This document shows positions 5,735 to 47,922 of a stretch of DNA of 64,000 nucleotides, piece by piece (the first letter of the stretch is position 1; each line of letters begins with the position of its first letter). Under the pieces are notes generated by a model that did no database searches, was not told where the DNA came from, and saw nothing but the letters and a program-made list of their open reading frames with translations. The stretch is from Gongronella butleri (taxonomy: Eukaryota; Mucoromycota; Mucoromycetes; Mucorales; Cunninghamellaceae). The position numbers and the translations under genes were made by a program. The DNA lies in NCBI GenBank assembly GCA_025201375.1, contig JAIWZP010000015.1, positions 372,001 to 436,000 on the forward strand, read 5' to 3'.

Positions 5735-7699
5735 ATGCAGCGCTCGGCTTTCACTTTGGCCAGCCGTCTTCAGACCCGCGCCTACGTTGGCCTCGCTTAC
5801 AAGGAGCATGCTCCCTTGTCTGTCGACCGCTCTCTCAAGTCGTTTGAGCACACTGCCGCCTCGCAGCAAGGAAGCACTATTTCAAACGTCGGCCAAGGTA
5901 CTACAACTCGGCAAAAGACGCGCCACGCTTGCTCACTCTCGCACTCTTTGTATAGATACGTCCATTGAGGATAACTCGGAACCCGTCTTTGAGGTCGTCA
6001 ACTCGGGTGTCGGTAAGAATTTTCTTTTTTTTTTTTTTTTTTTTGTTACAAAGTAGCTGTTGAAATAACACCCGCTCACTCCCCTTTTTCGCCAATCTGC
6101 TTTCTCTCCCTTGGTTTACCATCCTCAGGCTCGGCCCTGCTCGTCAAGGTACGTGCCACGATGATCGACTGAAAAGAAAGGATCGAAAAAGTCTTGAACC
6201 CAAAGATTTGATCGCAAAGCAATTGATCAATGGACTTCAATCGAATGGGCAAAAAAAAAAAACGCACGGCTCACTTTCTTCTTTTGTCTAGCTGCCAGCT
6301 GACACGGAAATCATGGCAACCACGGGGTCTGCCTTGGGTGCCTCGAGCCGCGTGACGTCCAGATTGGCCGTCGAGGGCCACATTGTCAATGCAACGGCGC
6401 GCAAACTGGTGGGCGACCCTTTCTTCTATCAAAAGGTACGATTTCTGGCTATTGATGAAGACGAGACGAGACGATGGAAAACGAAAAAAACCCATTTGGG
6501 GGTCAATTGCAAGCAATTGATGCTAATGCGCTTTTTTTCCATTTAGTTTTATACCAAGCAGCAGCCGGGCGACCTCTTGTTGGCACCGCATCGCATGGGT
6601 GACATCACCACCATCCAGCTCAAGGGCAGCACCAAGTACGTGCTGCGCCGCGATGCATTTTTGGCCAAAACGCAAAAAGTTTCGCTTGAGCTCGGCACCG
6701 ACGGCATGAAGACGAAGCACACGGTAAGTAGGGTGCGCAGCATGATGTCACAAGCGAGGCGCGACGCGTCAAGGGCCAAACGCATCGGTCCCTGACCATG
6801 CCATTCTCTTTTTTTTTCCTTGCTCTTTTTCAGGGCATTGTCAACAAGCTAGTGCACACCGTCACGGGCCCTGGCACATTGGCCATCTCGCATTACGGCG
6901 GGCTCTATCGCCTCGCGCTCGCCGCCGGTGAGGAGTACTTGGTCAATCCTAGGTAAAAAAAAAAAAAAAAAAAAAAAAAGATATTTTGCCCGCACGGATC
7001 TCACGTGTGTGCGCGTGTTCTCGTGTAGAAACCTGATCCTCTGGGACAAGCGAACGACGCCCACGCGCCTCCATCCCGCAGACCCCATTGTGCCCTCGCC
7101 GCGCTCGCCATGGCGCCGCTTTGCCGTTGTCCGCAACATTGCAGAAAGCCCGTCTTTCCAACCAAAGCTGCAATTCATCAACAGCTGGTCAAAGACCGTG
7201 CGCAACATTCTGCTTGGTGCTCCTGTAAGAATCAGCCCCCACGCAAAAGATCGTCATTGGCTCACGCTTTGTTCTTTTCTTTTAAACAAAGGATTTTGTG
7301 AAATTGAAGGGCCCTGGCGACTTTTATGTTGCCTCAAGAGTGGAACCGCGTTGGGCACGCTCGCGACTGTAAGCACGGACACGTTGATCATGTTTGTCAG
7401 GGTAAAAAAATAATAACTTGTTCCTTAGGATGAATGCGCTCGCCGCCGTCAATGACTCGTCGTCGCAGCTGTTTGAACAATCGCTCGTGTTCCCTGATCC
7501 CGCGCCGGGCCAGCACGTGCCTGCGGCGCCCCAGGGTGCCATTGCGCAGGTGCTGTCGTCCATCAGCAAGTCGGTCGCGCCGCACCCCGGCTACGCGGAA
7601 AAGTCTGTCAATGGTCAGCCTTCTTTTTACGTCCAGGTCGCGCGCGGCAAAGCTGTCTTTACCTCCAACAAGCCCGATGATCACGCCGCATCGCCATGA
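5735..7699 (+). CDS. AIM24: AIM24-family mitochondrial protein
   Basis: AIM24 is a mitochondrial inner-membrane protein that in yeast supports MICOS and cristae organisation. Nine exons: 5735-5897, 5956-6012, 6129-6148, 6292-6435, 6547-6723, 6834-6952, 7029-7224, 7292-7368, 7429-7699, giving 407 aa with consistent phase. The N-terminus (MQRSAFTLASRLQTRAYVGL) is basic, Ser/Thr-rich and lacks acidic residues, as expected of a presequence. The core follows the AIM24 pattern, including FVKLKGPGDFYVASR near the end. Exon 3 is just 20 nt. The intron after exon 6 begins with GT fused to a run of more than 20 A. AATAAA lies about 125 bp after the stop. Confidence 0.9.
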
Positions 7700-39597: not shown

Positions 39598-41362
39598 CTA
39601 CTCGTCAGACAACACGTCACGGAACACCAGGGTCATGCCGTACGCGTACACAATCTCAACAATTTGATCCTCGTCGTCATCGTCGCCAAGGATATCAGTC
39701 TCTTCGATTTTCACATTGAGACGCGCGATTTTGCCATAGACAAACATGACCATCATCGCGTACATCTTGTTCAAGACGGATGCGCCACACGCGCTCGTCA
39801 TCGTGGCCGTCGCCGCCCGTGTCGTAATAGTCGTCACAGCCAATGCTGTTCACATTCTCAATGGGAATGTCCTGTTCGACATACTCCATCTTGGTTAGCA
39901 TCAGCATTCGTGTCCACGTCTCGCGCTTGAGCAACATGGCGCGTCGCTGGATCTCCTTGGCCGACAGCGCGTCACCGACCATCAAAACGCGCACAATCTG
40001 CAGCAACGCGCAGTCCAATGCCGTTTCGATCTCCGCCTCTGCGTACCGCTGCTTCATCAGCGCCCACAAAGGGGCCAATGACAATGTGTACTTGACATCC
40101 GGGCCGTACTCGCCCACAGGTGCTTGAATGATGCCATCCACCTCAAGATCACGCAAGCAAAAAGTCAAACCCTCACACAAAAGACGACGACGCGTCGCCA
40201 TGTCCTGACCCAAGTGGAGGGCGACAAAGCCAAGCGTCGGATCCGAAAGCAACGCGTCCTCAAGATTGTCGTGCGTCATGGCTTGGCAAACACACACAAA
40301 AAAAAAGTGCGTCAGTGCGCGTCAAAATGATGTTTGCAGGCAAACCTAACCTGTTCACGGTTGTTTTGCAGCCACGTGTTCTTGAACAGAGTGGCAATCA
40401 CGCGTGCGGCAATAGGATCCATGGCTTTGATCGCAAAAATCTCCAATGTCTAGAAATAACGCGTATAAGCGTCATCATTTAAGCAGCATGTCTCTTTTCT
40501 TTTACCGTGCATAGCAGGTAAAGATTAAATTTGCGGAAATTGAGGGCGTAAAACACGGTGCTCACTTGCATCTCCTAACGAAAATAAAAAAAAGGCGAAT
40601 TGATGATCGTCCAAATGAGCATGTGTTAAAATGGTCGAGTTGGCCGTCATTTTTACCTGATCATCGTTGCCGTCAGATATCACAATCACCGGATACGCGT
40701 GAACGGGCACCAAATAGCCACTTTCAATCATCGAATAGCACACTGGAGCGCACAATGGCCGAGCAAAAAGGGTAAACAAAAAAAGCGTGAGTGCGCAAAT
40801 TGGAATTCATTGGCTAAGAAGAATCTTACCAGGGCCATCCAAGCCGTCCTTGACCATACTGTCCAGTGTCATGCGGCCATTGTCGTAGACAGCCTTGGTA
40901 ATGTCGACGCCCTAAAAAAAAAAAAAATAAAAAAAAAGGATGAAAATGGCCACCCACTAGTCTCATGTCTCTCATTTTAGCTGCCAACCTTGCCATCAAA
41001 GGCTCGCATTGCAGTGTCCATTAGGGCAACCTTGCCGGGACGCGCCAATGTTGCATTCATGTTGAGAGAAAACGACAGCGGCTTCACATCGACTTGCTGC
41101 GCTGTCGGTTCATTAACACAGCAGACATTGTGCTGCACAAGCGTCGTGATAACCTTGTCCACCTCTTGGCGCAGCATTTCAGTCGCTAGCATTAAGTCTT
41201 CACACGTCGCGTCGCCGAGGTCAATGAGTTTGGACACCAAGGCCTGCAAAAATGAAAGAAAAATTACGACGCGTCCGACGTGGTACAATGCGCACTCACC
41301 GATGCATCATCACCAAACTCCTCCTTGACAAACATTTGGTACGCAATATCAAGCAGATTCAT
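39598..41362 (-). CDS. RNA polymerase III subunit RPC3/RPC82 (apparent frameshift near the 3' end)
   Basis: RPC3 belongs to the Pol III-specific initiation subcomplex and is built of winged helices. ATG at 41362 opens MNLLDIAYQMFVKEEFGDDA, then VSKLIDLGDATCEDLMLATE and VITTLVQHNVCCVNE, the first winged helix. Later exons give YDNGRMTLDSMVKDGL and SMIESGYLVPV. Next is STVFYALNFRKFNLYLLCTT, typical of RPC82, and the last long exon begins AMTHDNLEDALLSDP. Near 39778 the frame breaks: VWRI is in one frame and VLNKMYAMMVMFVYGKIARL in another. No plausible intron separates them. The shift could be a sequencing error or a real lesion. The 3' end converges with WDR48. Confidence 0.75.
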
Positions 41363-41797
41363 GGTCGTAAAACAAGGTACAAAGATTGAAAATGAAAAAA
41401 ATCAAGAAAAAGGGGGAAATGGGGGAAAGAAAAAAGCCAGCAATGATCAAGCGGAAATGCGACACCGATCCACTTTCCAGTGGTCACGTGGGTCCATGCA
41501 CAGCTAGAAAAAGGGAATTGGTGGCCTTATTGTTCACGCCCCTGGGTTTTTACACGCAGCACCCATCTCACTGCAGAAAAAAAAAATGTGAGCAGCCAAT
41601 CAAAACCAATGTCGCCCATTCCTAAACTTACCTTTATTCAATCCAAGAAAAAAAAAAAAGAGAACTAAACCTGTCAAAAAAAAAAAAGTGATGCGTCAGG
41701 ATCACATTAGCCTTTTCGTTCGCGCATTGACTTACAAAGTGAGGCAGAGACTCCAGCTCGCCACATGGGCACCAAGAAGAGGTGGTGTGGCAAGCTA
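41363..41797 (-). other. Fanzor 3' flank / RPC3 promoter; candidate omega-RNA region
   Basis: Only 435 bp separate the Fanzor stop (41798) from the RPC3 ATG. Known TnpB/Fanzor guide RNAs overlap or follow the 3' end of the nuclease gene, so such an RNA, if present, would lie here on the minus strand. Just past the stop a short open stretch reads WCPCGELESLPHF and ends in a consensus donor GTAAGT (about 41745), so a 3'UTR intron or extra exon is possible. Poly-A runs interrupt the rest. Confidence 0.3.
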
Positions 41798-44700
41798 TCA
41801 TTGCCCCGGCCGCGGCCGAGTTTCATTCGGCCCGCGTGGAAAAGTCGCTGTGTCAAAGTTGCCTTGATATCTTTCGTGGACGATCATGAACAACCCTTTT
41901 GCCAAGATATTACGCGCTGCGTTGACATCTCTGTTCCATTTGGTGCGGCATGTGGAACACATGAGCACCGAGTACAAGGAACGTTCGGTGTCAACAGGCG
42001 TGAGATGGCTGAGGGAGCGTGCGCCGCATGCAGAGCACACCTGGGACGTGAGGAATTCCGATATGTTGATCATCACGAGGCGGCCTTGTGCATTGGCACC
42101 TTGATATAGCCTTTTGATGCGGCCAGGCAAGCCTGCTTGCGTGCGGCGGCCTTGGAACACTTGGCTGTCAAGAGTGGCGTCTCCATAAAACACGAGTGAC
42201 GGACGACGATCTCGGGCGCGCTGCGCAGAGGGACGCCATTTGGCCGTGCTACAAAATACAGGGCAAGACAGGGGATCAACGCAAGCCCCTTTTTTTTCGT
42301 TTTCTTTTTTTCTTTTTTTTTCTTTCATTTTTTACCTTGATAGATTTTCCTCGCTTGTGATCGTCCGGGGATCCTGCGTTTGGTATTTTTTGCCTCCGTG
42401 GATCAAGATGTTGACCGCCTCCGCGTCCATTTTTTGTGTAGCGCGACGGATCTCGAAGCGCGCCTTGTTGTATTTTAAAGAATAATGTCGCAATAGGTCG
42501 TCCAGGTGTGTGTTGATGTAGACGAGGTAATCATGCAGCTTGTCGAGCTGAGTGGTGCGGGGGCTTGGCATCTGCGACTCCACGAGCTTGATGCCTGACT
42601 TGCGCTTCCATGTCTCCATTTTCGTTTGCTGTTGGTGTTGCGCGACGCGATACTCCATGGACGACAGCTGTCTGACTTGGTGAGGGCTCTTGACGGATGG
42701 CACAGGCGCGTCTCGTGGCACATGCATCACCGGTGCGAAATAGCGGCCATTGAGCATGTTGTCTTGGGCCATCAAGGGGTATTCGTACATGGATGGCTGG
42801 GCTCCGTCCGCCGCAACAATCAGGTCTCGTTGTCCAGGGTCCAATCCCCATATTTGGAAATAGGCGAGTTCCCATGGCTGGAAGTCTGAGAGATCAAGCA
42901 GCGGTAGCTGCGGAAGTGGCGCCTTGGACTTTGCGTAGAGCAAGGAGATCCTGTGACCATCCGTGTGGCACACAGAGCGTGGTGCCATGCGCGGCGGATT
43001 GCTAAAAAAAAAAAAAGACAGAAAGAAAGAAAAGAAAAGGAAAAAAAAGCAGAATGAGCATGACGCGTGCAATGGACGCGCTTTTTTTTTTTTTTTTTGA
43101 GCTTGCCTTGATAATGCGTGGGCCGACACAAGTGCTGCTGGCGCAAAAACGCGGTTGAAGCAACCCTGTTTGGGTCTGATGGGGATGCCGGCGGATGTCA
43201 AAAGCGTGGACAATGATTCGTCATCAAGGGTGATATGGATGCGGACGAATGACGGGGTTGGTGATGGTCCGAACACTCTGAGTTGCCTCGTGGCAGGGCT
43301 CGCCTTCCCATAAAGACATCGCGCTAGCATTGAGCGATCCGAAGTGTTTCCCCATTGCCGGACTTTGTTTGACCAATACAGACGCTTGCGGGCTTGTGCC
43401 ACGACGGTCGACAGCTTGTGCAGGGCATTTGTGCCCAAATGGCGCCATGGCTGGGGATCAAAGGCTTGTCGTCTCGCAATGGCTGCGCCGTGTGCTTCAT
43501 CTGTGTCGTCATCGTCGTCGTGAAGGTGGTCGTCATGCGGTGGGTGATAAGGTGGCTCGGCGTTGATGGCCGAGACAATGGCCCTGGCCAAGCGGCGGCG
43601 CTGTGGGCGTGTCAATTGCAGGCGAAGCTGATTGAGTTGTTGGAATGCAAATGGGCGGTCGGCCTCAAATAGCATCTTTGTCGATTGGCGCTGGATAAAA
43701 TCGTTGTGCTCCTCGGCGTACTCATCAACCATCAAAAGGTAATGCAGAAACAGGTGCGGCTTGCGTGTGATGAATGCCATGTCGATGCGGCCCACTGGCG
43801 GGATCGTCTCGCGCGCCTCTTGCGCAATGCCTTGAAGAATGGCCAGCGTCGCGTCCTCGCCCAAACTGCGCGCATTGGCCCATGCGTCCCAAGCTTCGTG
43901 CTCGCCTTCTGTCTTTTCAAGCGCGTATACACTCCAAATCGTCTCAAGATCAATTCGCAGGCCTTGTCTAACTTGTTCAACGGCGTGTTGGACTCGCTCC
44001 TCGTTGATGTAATCCACATTTGGCGCGGGGTGCTCCTCCGCGAGCTTGCATTGCTCAACGATCAGATGGCGCGCATATGCGAGGGCATGACCATGCTTCA
44101 GATTCTAGAAGAAAAAAAAAAGATGAAAATCAGGAACAAAAAAAAAAAAAAAGAGAGGAGAGAGAGAAAAAAAAAGGCCCTACCGACAGGTGGCCGTGTA
44201 ATTGGGCGGCGAGGCAATGCATCAGCCGTGTGTGGAATGTTTCGACGACGAAATTGATGTGGCCCGTGGCTGTCTGCTTGTTGAGATGGTTGAGTGTGGT
44301 GGCATATTCGCGTGTGCCATGGATGCCGCCAAGGCGAGAGATCTGGAGAGCCGGGTATTGTTGTCGGAATTGCAGGAAGACGCGCAAGATTGTGGTCGAG
44401 TGATGGGCGATGACGGCGGCATTTGTGATAGCCTTGCCCAAAAAGAGCTGCTGCACCGCATGGTAAAAGTGTGGGTCAAAGATGTACGGGTGGAGAGGAA
44501 GATGGGCGTCGTGGCAGACGAGGATAAAGTACTTTGTAAACGCCATTTGAAGGAATCGCATCCGCGTGGCATACAAGCAGACGTCACGGATCACTGCGAC
44601 GAGTCTGGACGCTTGATCATCCGGGAGATTGACCCGAAGCACCCTGTTGAGCCTGCCCACACGGGCGCAAGTAACATTGGCGCCAAGAATATCAAGAAGG

Positions 44701-45251
44701 CGCGTCTTCTTTGATGTTTTTTGGACGCGTTTGGCTTGTGGGCCAAGAATCCGCTGCTGTTGGGCGTCGCGCCGGCCGTCCTGTTCCTCGCGTTTCGTGG
44801 TTGCCGACTGCTTCTTCATGAGACTACGCTTTTGCGCCATACTTGACGACTCTACAAAGAAAAAAAATATGAAATTGGGCCATTTCTCATTCCCAACCCC
44901 CCACTCTTTTTGTTTTGTTTGCTTTTTTACCTGCTACAGGTGTGTCGCTATCGTCCTCTCCCCCTGCGACTTCTTGTTGCGCAGTGCTGTGTTCATCTTG
45001 CGTGTTGCGGTCTTCTAAAGCAGCTATCGCCTGCTGGACAGCAGCGGCAATGGCTTGAACTACAACAAAAACGATCCTATTAGCACTTGCCTTTGAACAA
45101 AAACGCGCACCGGCTTCTTTTTGCTCTTTTTTTTTTTTTTTTTACCTTGCTGTTCAAGTTTATCCTCTCGCTTCTGTCGGATAATGTCTCGCGCTTTCAT
45201 AAAGCGATAGCCCCCATCGGGGGGACGGCGTGGGGGAGGGGGATCAGCCAT
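41798..45251 (-). CDS. Fanzor1-type (eukaryotic TnpB/OrfB-like) RNA-guided DNA endonuclease
   Basis: Fanzors are eukaryotic relatives of TnpB that cut DNA guided by an omega-RNA. Six exons: 45251-45146, 45059-44931, 44851-44184, 44104-43107, 43001-42336, 42248-41798, exactly 1006 codons with phase kept at each junction. The split RuvC domain shows Asp688 (WGLDPGQRDLIVAAD), Glu920 (INISEFLTS, the Fanzor-style alternative Glu) and Asp963 (WNRDVNAARNI). The zinc ribbon is Cys927/930 and Cys953/956 (CSACG...CSTCR). Intron 4 uses a GC donor (GCAAGC). Residues 1-110 are a charged, coiled-coil-like extension; 110-630 is a long recognition-type region without a named domain. No inverted repeats or transposase were found beside it, so it may be domesticated or a remnant of an element. 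Nuclease activity and guide RNA are inferred. Confidence 0.9.
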
Positions 45252-47922
45252 TAGGGGAGTGTAAACAAAAGGAAAGAGAAAAGAAAAACACGCGCACTTC
45301 GTCATCTCCGACCGCGTTTCTCTCTTTGCTTCCTGACTATAGCAGTTGAAACTCAGCCAACCAATCAGTCCATCAATTTCCATTTACGATTTTTCATTTT
45401 TTGCTGTGTCTGAAGCGGTGCCAAGCTGCCCAATCCAAAATATAAGAAATGGGTCTCCAGGTTTATGCCAACCTTGCACACAAGAAAAGAGGTGCGGAAA
45501 ACTCAAGAACAGCATCAAAAGTGAATGAATGCAATGCTTCGTTGGCGAGCAGGCAGCGATTTTAGATTTTGCTTTTCAGGTTAAATTGCACCAGGAAAAC
45601 GCGTCATGCAGCTGCACTGACGCGTCCACTGGCAAGAGACACACCAGATGCATGGCTTTGATAAGAGGCAGACGCGTGCAACTCAATCATGGCAAGATCC
45701 ACCACCGCGTCAAAAGTGGCCCGCAAATGGGCTCTTTCTCTCCCATGTGCCAATTCTGCCAAAATTCGTATTTTTCACAAATCACCAATGTGTACATATG
45801 TGCTAGGTCGTGCTCCATTTGGTGATATGCATTTGTGCGCACGGTAACCATTTTTTGTTGGGCCTTGCCCAAAAAATAGGACATCAGGCGCAATTTTTCG
45901 TGTTTTGCTCAAAACTTGTCCCATGGGCCCTCGATTTTTATCGACAAAGAAGTATCTCGTCTGTCAATGCGTGCAAAGAAGCGAAAGGGGGCATCGGCCA
46001 GGAAACAGATGGGCAAAGTAAAAAGAGGAGGCATCGGCCAGGGAACAGGTTTTCAAGGCAGAAAAAGATGAATTGCCAAGGGAAAAAGTGAAAAAAGCAG
46101 ACAAATTTGATTCGAAAATGGTGCAGACGGGTAGTGTTGAATTAGAAGTTCGACAATCATCCCCGTACTGCTCCAGCGGTGATACATTACCGCGCAGCAT
46201 CGCAGCGATGCCCGACCCAGACGACGAATGTCAATAAAGACCCCCCTATGAAGCCCCCATTTTTGCATGGCTCTGGAACTTGCCAGTCATTGGTTACGAA
46301 ACGTAAAAAAAAAATACAAATTGGCCGCGCGACGCGCTTTTTCTCCCTTTTATTATTTATTTAATTGTGCGCAACAATTAATGACCGGTGCCGTTTATGA
46401 CCGTCTATTCGGAGGCGTCCTCTAGTCAAACGGCTTACAAGTTCATATCACGCTTATGCGTCATTCGCCGCGCCCAAAGCGACGGGTCCTAAAGGACTCT
46501 GATTTACAAGGTCCTGCGGCCGAAGGATTCTTCAACCTCTTTGGTACTGATCCGAGCCGCCTGTTTTTCTTTCTGCAGCGAGCACGCATCGACCAAGCAC
46601 CTTTTTTCTTGTCTCTGGATCCTTTTATGATACTTTATATCGCAAATCTCGTTCATACCGCGACGCACCTGAGACATCACTTATGAGAAACCCGCCAACA
46701 GCATTGCTACATGCTTCACAAAAAGCAGCACCAAAAGTTCAAAGCGACACACGATGCCGATTGCGCTACTGCGCATTGCAGGTGAGGATGATGCTGAAAA
46801 AGACGATGCTGGCAAAGTGACACGAAATACTGCCAGAATTAGACACCTCTGGGAATCGAGAAAAAAAATGCAGGGCATCAAAGCGCGTCTGATGCGACGT
46901 GACTCGTTTGTTTGTGCGTATTTTATGGTAAGACGCGTTTTTTTTTTTGTGCGTGTATTTGACTCTACGCACCCCAGGGACCATTTATGAAAATGAATGC
47001 ACTGCGTTGTCGTCCTCTCTGACACGTGCAATGTTCGTTTGTGAATTCCATGGAGGTTGTGGCCTGTTTTTATGCAAGTTTTTGGATTTCAGAGGGGTTT
47101 GCAACCCGCGGCAAGCCCAATTGGGCAAGGCAACGAAGTGGTGGCACCATCTGCAGCACCTCCAGATATGGCTTGCACAATTCTGTGGCTGAGGGATGGT
47201 CGTCTGCCATTGTCACACAGCTATACCATGCTCACTACCGCAAACCACTACTAAAGGGCCATTTTTTTTCTTTTTTATTAATTTGATCCAGCCAGTGATC
47301 CGTAAGAGTGTTCCTTGCGCAGCCCAATTGGGCTTGGCGTGACATTACCTTAAAGACGAAATGAAAAAGTAGAGTTTTGCGCCAAATAAATGGATCATCA
47401 TCGATTTTTATCGATTTCTCAAGGAACGATCGCGATGAAAAGAATGGTGTGGGGTTGGTGAACCGTGAGTAAGATCACGCTCGGGTGCTTCATGGCACAG
47501 AAATCACATGCAATGGCACGATCACGGTAAAAAAAAGACGATCACGCGCTTGGTCCGTGTCAAAAGCGGCAACAAACAGACGTGTACCATTTGTTTCACT
47601 ACCGTCGTCCACGCAATGGATCCGCGCGACTCTTGTATGCATGATCTGCATTGTACAAAAGAAAAAAAAACGAGTTTAATGGGGGCATCACGAGCCATTG
47701 TACGAAAGAAAAGAAAAGCATAAGGAAAGTGGTGGAAGAGAAATGGCGCTTGGGGCAGTTGCATGATGTAACGTAAAACATAAAGAGAAAAAGGTATGCA
47801 GAGGATCGATGATGAGGATGGAGATCAAAATGACTCAAAAGGAGAGTTGAGGGTGGAAAAAGCGGGACAGGGTATGCAAAAAAACGAATCTATACATCAA
47901 AAGGAGGGGATAATTTTTTTTT
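45252..47922. other. Intergenic; repeat fragments and one weak ORF
   Basis: The Fanzor promoter should lie just above 45251. 45570-45720 resembles 29590-29760 (shared GCGAGAGACACA-like and GCAGACGC blocks). A 76-codon plus frame at 46456-46686 (GFFNLFGTDPSRLFFFLQRA, then DPFMILYIANLVHTATHLRH) has protein-like composition but no domain I know. An overlapping frame from 46396 makes its start uncertain. The rest shows no gene. Confidence 0.35.

Follow-up and report, generated by a model that had tools for sequence, protein, structure and literature searches.

Does the window, the whole 64,000-nucleotide stretch of Gongronella butleri DNA analysed here, carry an intact Fanzor1 gene on its minus strand between positions 45251 and 41798, and is that gene a domesticated host gene, as an earlier note had suggested it might be, or part of a mobile element? 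The comparisons below point with good confidence to the mobile element: an intact Fanzor1 is very probably the sole recognised gene of a 3.84-kb, apparently non-autonomous EnSpm/CACTA-type transposon present in two intact copies, and we infer the steps by which that transposon would move and be guided.

Gene model and spliced protein

When window positions 45251..41798 of the minus strand were spliced in silico, six exons and exactly 1005 codons were obtained, with intron phases 1, 1, 0, 2 and 2, which reproduces the in-phase frame that had been proposed from the letters alone. Intron 4 (43106-43002) is GC-AG; the other four are GT-AG. The three predicted catalytic residues (D688, E920 and D963) and the CxxC...CxxC ribbon likewise lie where the earlier note had placed them in the 1005-residue protein.

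45146..45251, minus strand: exon 1 (in-silico splicing)
44931..45059, minus strand: exon 2 (in-silico splicing)
44184..44851, minus strand: exon 3 (in-silico splicing)
43107..44104, minus strand: exon 4, followed by the GC-AG intron (splicing and public protein)
42336..43001, minus strand: exon 5, with RuvC-I Asp688 in WGLDPG (splicing and motif reading)
41798..42248, minus strand: exon 6, with Glu920, the C4 zinc ribbon (C927, C930, C953, C956) and Asp963 (splicing and Pfam)

The predicted gene model has support beyond its open frames from three sources: a public protein, the second copy of the gene and a protein of Hesseltinella. The public protein, BC940DRAFT_30379 (P0001), a hypothetical protein of Gongronella butleri with 774 amino acids, corresponds to residues 83-855 at 100% identity and has the same introns 3 and 4 as the spliced model, the GC-AG intron included; introns 1 and 2 fall outside what it informs on, and intron 5 is read through, so that it ends with one Arg translated from that intron. 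Exon 6 is thus absent from P0001, and with it E920, D963 and the zinc ribbon, and P0001 has no Pfam domain. A public gene model can therefore drop the catalytic exon and hide such a gene from domain surveys. In the second copy the whole 1005-codon frame is kept, with no coding indels in 3018 bases versus 8 gap openings in the introns. Finally, a Hesseltinella vesiculosa protein (P0002) is collinear from end to end (321 identities in 922 aligned positions, 35%) and keeps the DPG, the alternative Glu and the RD.

Assignment to Fanzor1

The only Pfam match above cut-off is PF07282, the TNB zinc ribbon, at residues 907-970 (E 5e-11). Other similarity is sparse: a search of PDB sequences gave weak matches confined to the ribbon (LaTranC, E 0.0016; Guillardia theta Fanzor1, E 0.13), a three-sequence profile run against solved structures matched LaTranC alone and no Fanzor, and exon 6 matched the NCBIfam TnpB models far below their cut-offs. 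Among 5.8 billion proteins, the full-length query returned only its own record, P0001; the number of relatives is to be read as a minimum, since only the candidates richest in common words were scored (7997 in this search, 7990 in a further one with the same outcome). With residues 600-990 as query, P0002 was added (39% identity over 86% of the region), as was a more distant protein, P0003 (E 0.007).

The assignment is carried by motifs. The Fanzor fingerprint given in PMC10711439 consists of a DPG together with a Glu that precedes the zinc finger by six residues, and both are present here, as D688-P-G at RuvC-I and as E920-FLTSQV-C927 ahead of the first CxxC. The motif of Bao and Jurka, D-X(125,275)-[TS][TS]-X-X-C4-X(5,50)-RD (PMC3627910), is also found, with D688, 234 residues, T923 S924, C927 C930 C953 C956 and R962 D963. 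For the search pattern of PMC10711439, DPG-x(120-160)-E-x6-CxxC-x(12-18)-CxxC-x(4-8)-D, order and motifs fit and two spacings are too long (231 between D688 and E920, 22 between C930 and C953); this pattern was built for finding TnpB relatives in databases, and we therefore do not use it to delimit Fanzor1. Within the same genome the DPG is present also in families B-H, and all Fanzor groups with a readable ribbon (A-K) except I, which has Gln, retain the alternative Glu (10 of 11). Fingerprint, TNB domain and the recurrence of the Glu thus bear out the family and the intact predicted active site that the earlier note had read here, and the locus carries an intact gene whose product is a predicted RNA-guided DNA nuclease. 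As far as the known Fanzor1s are described in PMC10432273 and PMC3627910, this protein shares with SpuFz1 and GtFz1 the DPG at RuvC-I, the alternative Glu, the C4 ribbon, the RD and carriage by transposons, and Mucorales hosts (Mucor, Rhizopus and Phycomyces) are already among those listed; it differs from them in its 1005 residues, its EnSpm/CACTA-type ends and the right-end intron signature set out below.

A transposon with defined ends and a second copy

A second complete copy of the gene lies on a different contig of the 33.0-Mb genome (C23:1245337-1248810; the element is L029 3180-7042). The two copies have 98.0% DNA identity over 3883 aligned columns and differ at 8 amino acids, and homology between them stops at the same place on both sides. 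This comparison places the ends of the element in the window:

41569..45408, minus strand: whole element, 3840 bp, CAC...GTG ends (end of homology to the second copy)
45397..45408, minus strand: left terminal inverted repeat, CACAGCAAAAAA (copy comparison)
41569..41586, minus strand: right terminal repeat, read outward TTTTTTTTTTCTGCAGTG; doubles as the predicted terminal-intron acceptor (copy comparison)
45409..45411: target-site duplication on the left, reading AGA in gene orientation (same bases as 41566-41568)
41566..41568: target-site duplication on the right, likewise AGA in gene orientation (flank comparison)

The earlier note had reported no flanking inverted repeats; this was an error, as short imperfect repeats of 12 nt do flank the gene (CACAGCAAAAAA and CACTGCAGAAAA, alike at 10 of 12 positions). 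The 25 longest of the 705 inverted pairs are poly-A/T, and the terminal repeats of the element are absent from those 25. The termini read CACAGC...GCAGTG, and the 3-bp duplications differ between the copies (AGA in the window, ATA at the second copy). Both ends could be placed in seven copies, from families A, C and D, and four of these have perfect 3-bp duplications (P 2e-6, assuming uniform bases); the duplication is imperfect in C2, C3 and D2, with two bases of three agreeing in two of these copies and a single base in the other. The left edge of homology in family B has no CAC. CAC..GTG termini with 3-bp duplications place fungal elements in EnSpm (PMC12730594). We read these features together as those of a genuine and intact Fanzor1 whose transposon has moved.

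Inside the element no transposase was recognised, and the Fanzor1 is the sole gene recognised there. PF02992, which we take to be the CACTA transposase domain, has 9 matches in the genome, 8 of them above cut-off and none within the element. A genome search for right or left ends lacking the gene returned two places each, the two known copies, and a search for a Plavaka transposase gave no match, its control being silent as well. The terminal-repeat pattern CACTGCAAAAAAA, used to look for an autonomous partner, occurs at 67 places versus 6 for the reversed control, counts that are uninformative on partners because the reverse complement of the pattern is an ordinary poly-T splice acceptor; a shorter pattern occurs at 513 places versus 305 for its control.

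The element thus shares its CAC...GTG ends and 3-bp duplications with EnSpm/CACTA transposons (PMC12730594) and differs from them in having no recognised transposase, in carrying a Fanzor1 as cargo and in a predicted splice donor inside its own 3'UTR. Reported Fanzor1 carriers include Helitron, Mariner, IS4, Sola, MuDR, hAT and Crypton, a list that does not claim to be complete (PMC10432273, PMC3627910, PMC10711439). In the literature searched, there was no joint report of Fanzor and CACTA, Fanzor and EnSpm appeared together only as separate repeats of a green alga, and an EnSpm/CACTA-type transposon was not found described as a Fanzor carrier; the Fanzor1 itself adds a member to a family already known. 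The closest parallel is the SfAV Fanzor1 element, which is likewise non-autonomous, has two copies, carries only Fanzor1 and has short TIRs and TSDs; that element is viral and of unknown transposon family, and a right-end intron is not mentioned in what is available of its description (PMC10711439).

Constraint between the copies and the question of domestication

Over 3018 coding bases the two copies differ by 20 substitutions, of which 12 fall in synonymous and 8 in nonsynonymous codons; their introns differ by 9 substitutions and 8 gap openings in 429 aligned bases. By the NG86 method dN is 0.0035 and dS 0.0172 (dN/dS ~0.2), and with 77% nonsynonymous sites the binomial probability of 8 or fewer nonsynonymous changes among 20 is 5e-4. 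Since synonymous changes exceed nonsynonymous ones between the copies, the lineage stayed under constraint. The earlier note had claimed purifying selection for this copy; that holds between the two copies, and the data support it for the element's lineage, not demonstrably for the window copy individually. Within the coding sequence, 7 of the 20 substitutions fall in 120 bases of exon 4 (44104-43107; codons 375-411; P 0.001), a cluster that has perhaps come from gene conversion with a third copy.

The genome holds ten further Fanzor groups (B-K), three of which have 2-3 copies that are 90-97% alike. One of the relevant neighbours and these multi-copy families are located as follows:

39698..41362, minus strand: downstream host gene in the same orientation as the Fanzor1, with weak RPC82/POLR3C matches (E 0.001 and 0.006, both under the Pfam cut-off); its start codon is 206 bp from the element end
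Contigs C1, C39, C55, C68, C71 and C75 (L032-L036, L040, L041): families B, C and D, ~5 kb each, 2-3 copies

Domestication would mean that a former Fanzor had been kept for a host function and had lost its mobility. An intact frame and purifying selection between the copies fit such a history, as does a position immediately upstream of a gene that weakly matches an RNA polymerase III subunit, but the near-identical second copy, with the same ends and its own 3-bp duplication at an unrelated site, contradicts it, and so do the other Fanzor groups. We consider domestication highly improbable and dropped it in view of the second copy.

Near another Fanzor copy there is a 1-kb inverted repeat, 99% identical between its arms (L043 516-1541 and 2253-3275), of which a further copy lies on contig C13 (L045 9335-9992).

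A splice-site-like signature at the right end

Between the stop codon and the right end of the window element, the sequence has the layout of two putative introns:

41671..41735, minus strand: possible first 3'UTR intron, 65 nt, GTAAGT ... GACAG (sequence)
41571..41631, minus strand: predicted terminal 3'UTR intron, 61 nt (sequence and family comparison)

The terminal one reads AATAAAG/GTAAGT ... ATTGG..CTCAC..T(10)CTGCAG/TG, the TG being the end of the element, so that the predicted acceptor coincides with the terminal repeat. Right ends were fixed by copy comparison in families A-D and by motif only in E-I. Those placed consist of pyrimidines followed by [CT]AG/TG, apart from family I (CTGTG) and copy D2 (CAGG); the acceptor AG is kept at the right end in 8 of 9 families, being lost in I, and D2 is without the final TG. 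A donor motif, [AG]GTAAG, stands between stop codon and right end, 25-135 nt before the latter, in all nine families, with one copy taken from each (A1, B2, C2, D1, E1, F, G, H and I); groups J and K, whose right ends are unplaced, and four fragments were left out, and copies B1 and E2 have GGTAAA in its place. In shuffles of the same stretches the motif occurs at a mean rate of 0.054, which for 9 of 9 gives P 9e-13 under the assumption of independent families, an overstatement because the families are related. The predicted terminal introns are 61-124 nt long. Ahead of the acceptor, 8 of 9 families have a branch-point-like CTRAY or CTCAC and H has CTAAA, and the TTGG upstream of this motif is invariant in the ten right-end regions that were aligned, J with its unplaced end included.

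Family I (contig C1 near 346 kb; L042, ribbon near 5945 on the reverse strand), in which Gln replaces the alternative Glu, is thus also the family without the acceptor AG, and looks like a decaying copy.

What the alignment of the ten regions contains is linear motifs. The possibility that the right end folds into a guide-RNA scaffold was set aside, as 12 right-end sequences gave no signal in RNA folding energy (z -2.0 to +1.4) and an Rfam search of 40000-47000 gave no match.

The splice-site-like right end may be a terminal inverted repeat and nothing else: CACTA/CACTG repeats, read outward, naturally give YAG/TG, so that the AG comes free with such ends, and the upstream GTAAG would then do another job, possibly in polyadenylation or transposase binding. 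That ATTGG (CCAAT on the other strand) occurs near the right ends and, in families A, C and D, near the left ends too suits this explanation, which is the plainer one; it accounts for the AG, not for the recurring donor. The terminal repeat also stands at the left ends, and none of the seven left ends read in mirror image contains GTAAG, against 9 of 9 families on the right; the AG is lost in 4 of 7 left ends, where CACAGC stands for CACTGC, against its retention at the right end in nearly every family. In addition, families A and H, with ~35% protein identity, share 22 identical bases across the donor motif (TTGAATAAAGGTAAGTTTAGGA), in which a polyadenylation signal abuts the donor. We give the explanation by repeats somewhat less than an even chance. 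Splice sites at transposon termini are not without precedent, as maize En/Spm is said to carry them (a report attributed to Menssen, 1990).

A right-end intron signature appears to be conserved across nine families. The recurring donor and the acceptor at the edge suggest a Fanzor transcript built to run past the element and spliced there, and the splice may fall exactly at the element's edge, beside the expected position of the guide.

Insertion sites and neighbouring genes

Besides the gene downstream of the window element, genes with starts near other Fanzor right ends match TCP-1, CTNNBL1, DEAD-box and Nop14-like families (the last below cut-off), a BTB gene starts near a left end, and DnaJ-like and SPT4-like starts near Fanzor elements were read by eye. 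A same-strand coding start lies within ~300 bp of 9 of 15 right ends, seven by coding score (copies C1, C2, D1, D2, E1, E2 and H, C1 being weak) and two, A1 and C3, by eye. Fanzor elements in this genome insert near promoters, without a clear orientation preference.

The right-end counts would suit a terminal intron that serves the host, insertions into promoters surviving through clean splicing into the host 5'UTR. However, the left ends are much the same in this respect: 4 of 9 (A2, C1, C3 and D1) are within ~300 bp of the start of a gene leading away. There is thus no clear orientation bias, the idea of one was dropped, and a host-serving intron seems improbable to us.

The left flanks of the two insertions, otherwise unrelated, share GCTTCA[G/T]A (45409-45418 and L029), and GCTTCANA is common to both; copies C2 and C3 share GCGTCCAG directly to the left of the element. 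Copy A2 has CATA at the position of the left-flank motif, and CATA is the target-adjacent motif given for SpuFz1. Such common left-flank sequence could be a target-adjacent motif. By eye, the second copy (L029 around 3180 and 7042) is inserted a few bases past a 3' splice site, in coding-like sequence antisense to the Fanzor gene, and it may disrupt a host gene.

Proposed mechanism and implications

Taken as an EnSpm/CACTA-type transposon, the element would be moved by a CACTA-type transposase encoded elsewhere in the genome. The Fanzor protein would bind RNA of the right end plus flanking DNA and cut the matching empty site, whose repair would copy the element back, as proposed for TnpB. The right-end terminal repeat would double as the 3' splice site of the conserved 3'UTR intron, and splicing would set the 3'UTR directly against the flank from which the guide is expected to come. 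The same transcript would yield different products where the intron stayed in or where polyadenylation took place at the overlapping AATAAA. In three insect-virus Fanzor1s, PMC10711439 describes right-end RNA that takes in ~15 nt of flank beyond the duplication, so that the predicted final exon here begins where the guide should. Splicing could make the guide RNA, destroy it or only shape the mRNA, and the DNA does not tell these apart. On this basis we offer, as a speculative proposal that is rather unlikely to be right in full, that the Fanzor guide RNA in these fungi is set by a switch between splicing and polyadenylation at the transposon's edge: splicing might join the transcript to the flank that gives the guide or, if the scaffold is intronic, retention might make the guide RNA and splicing the mRNA.

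The locus would bear on two open questions, the carriage of Fanzors and the way in which one eukaryotic transcript might be the source of an mRNA and also of a guide RNA reaching into host DNA. For these it offers two near-identical intact copies, each with its ends and insertion site precisely placed, together with a homologue in a relative, and the right-end architecture found across nine families makes a specific prediction, namely spliced reads at the exact edge of the element.
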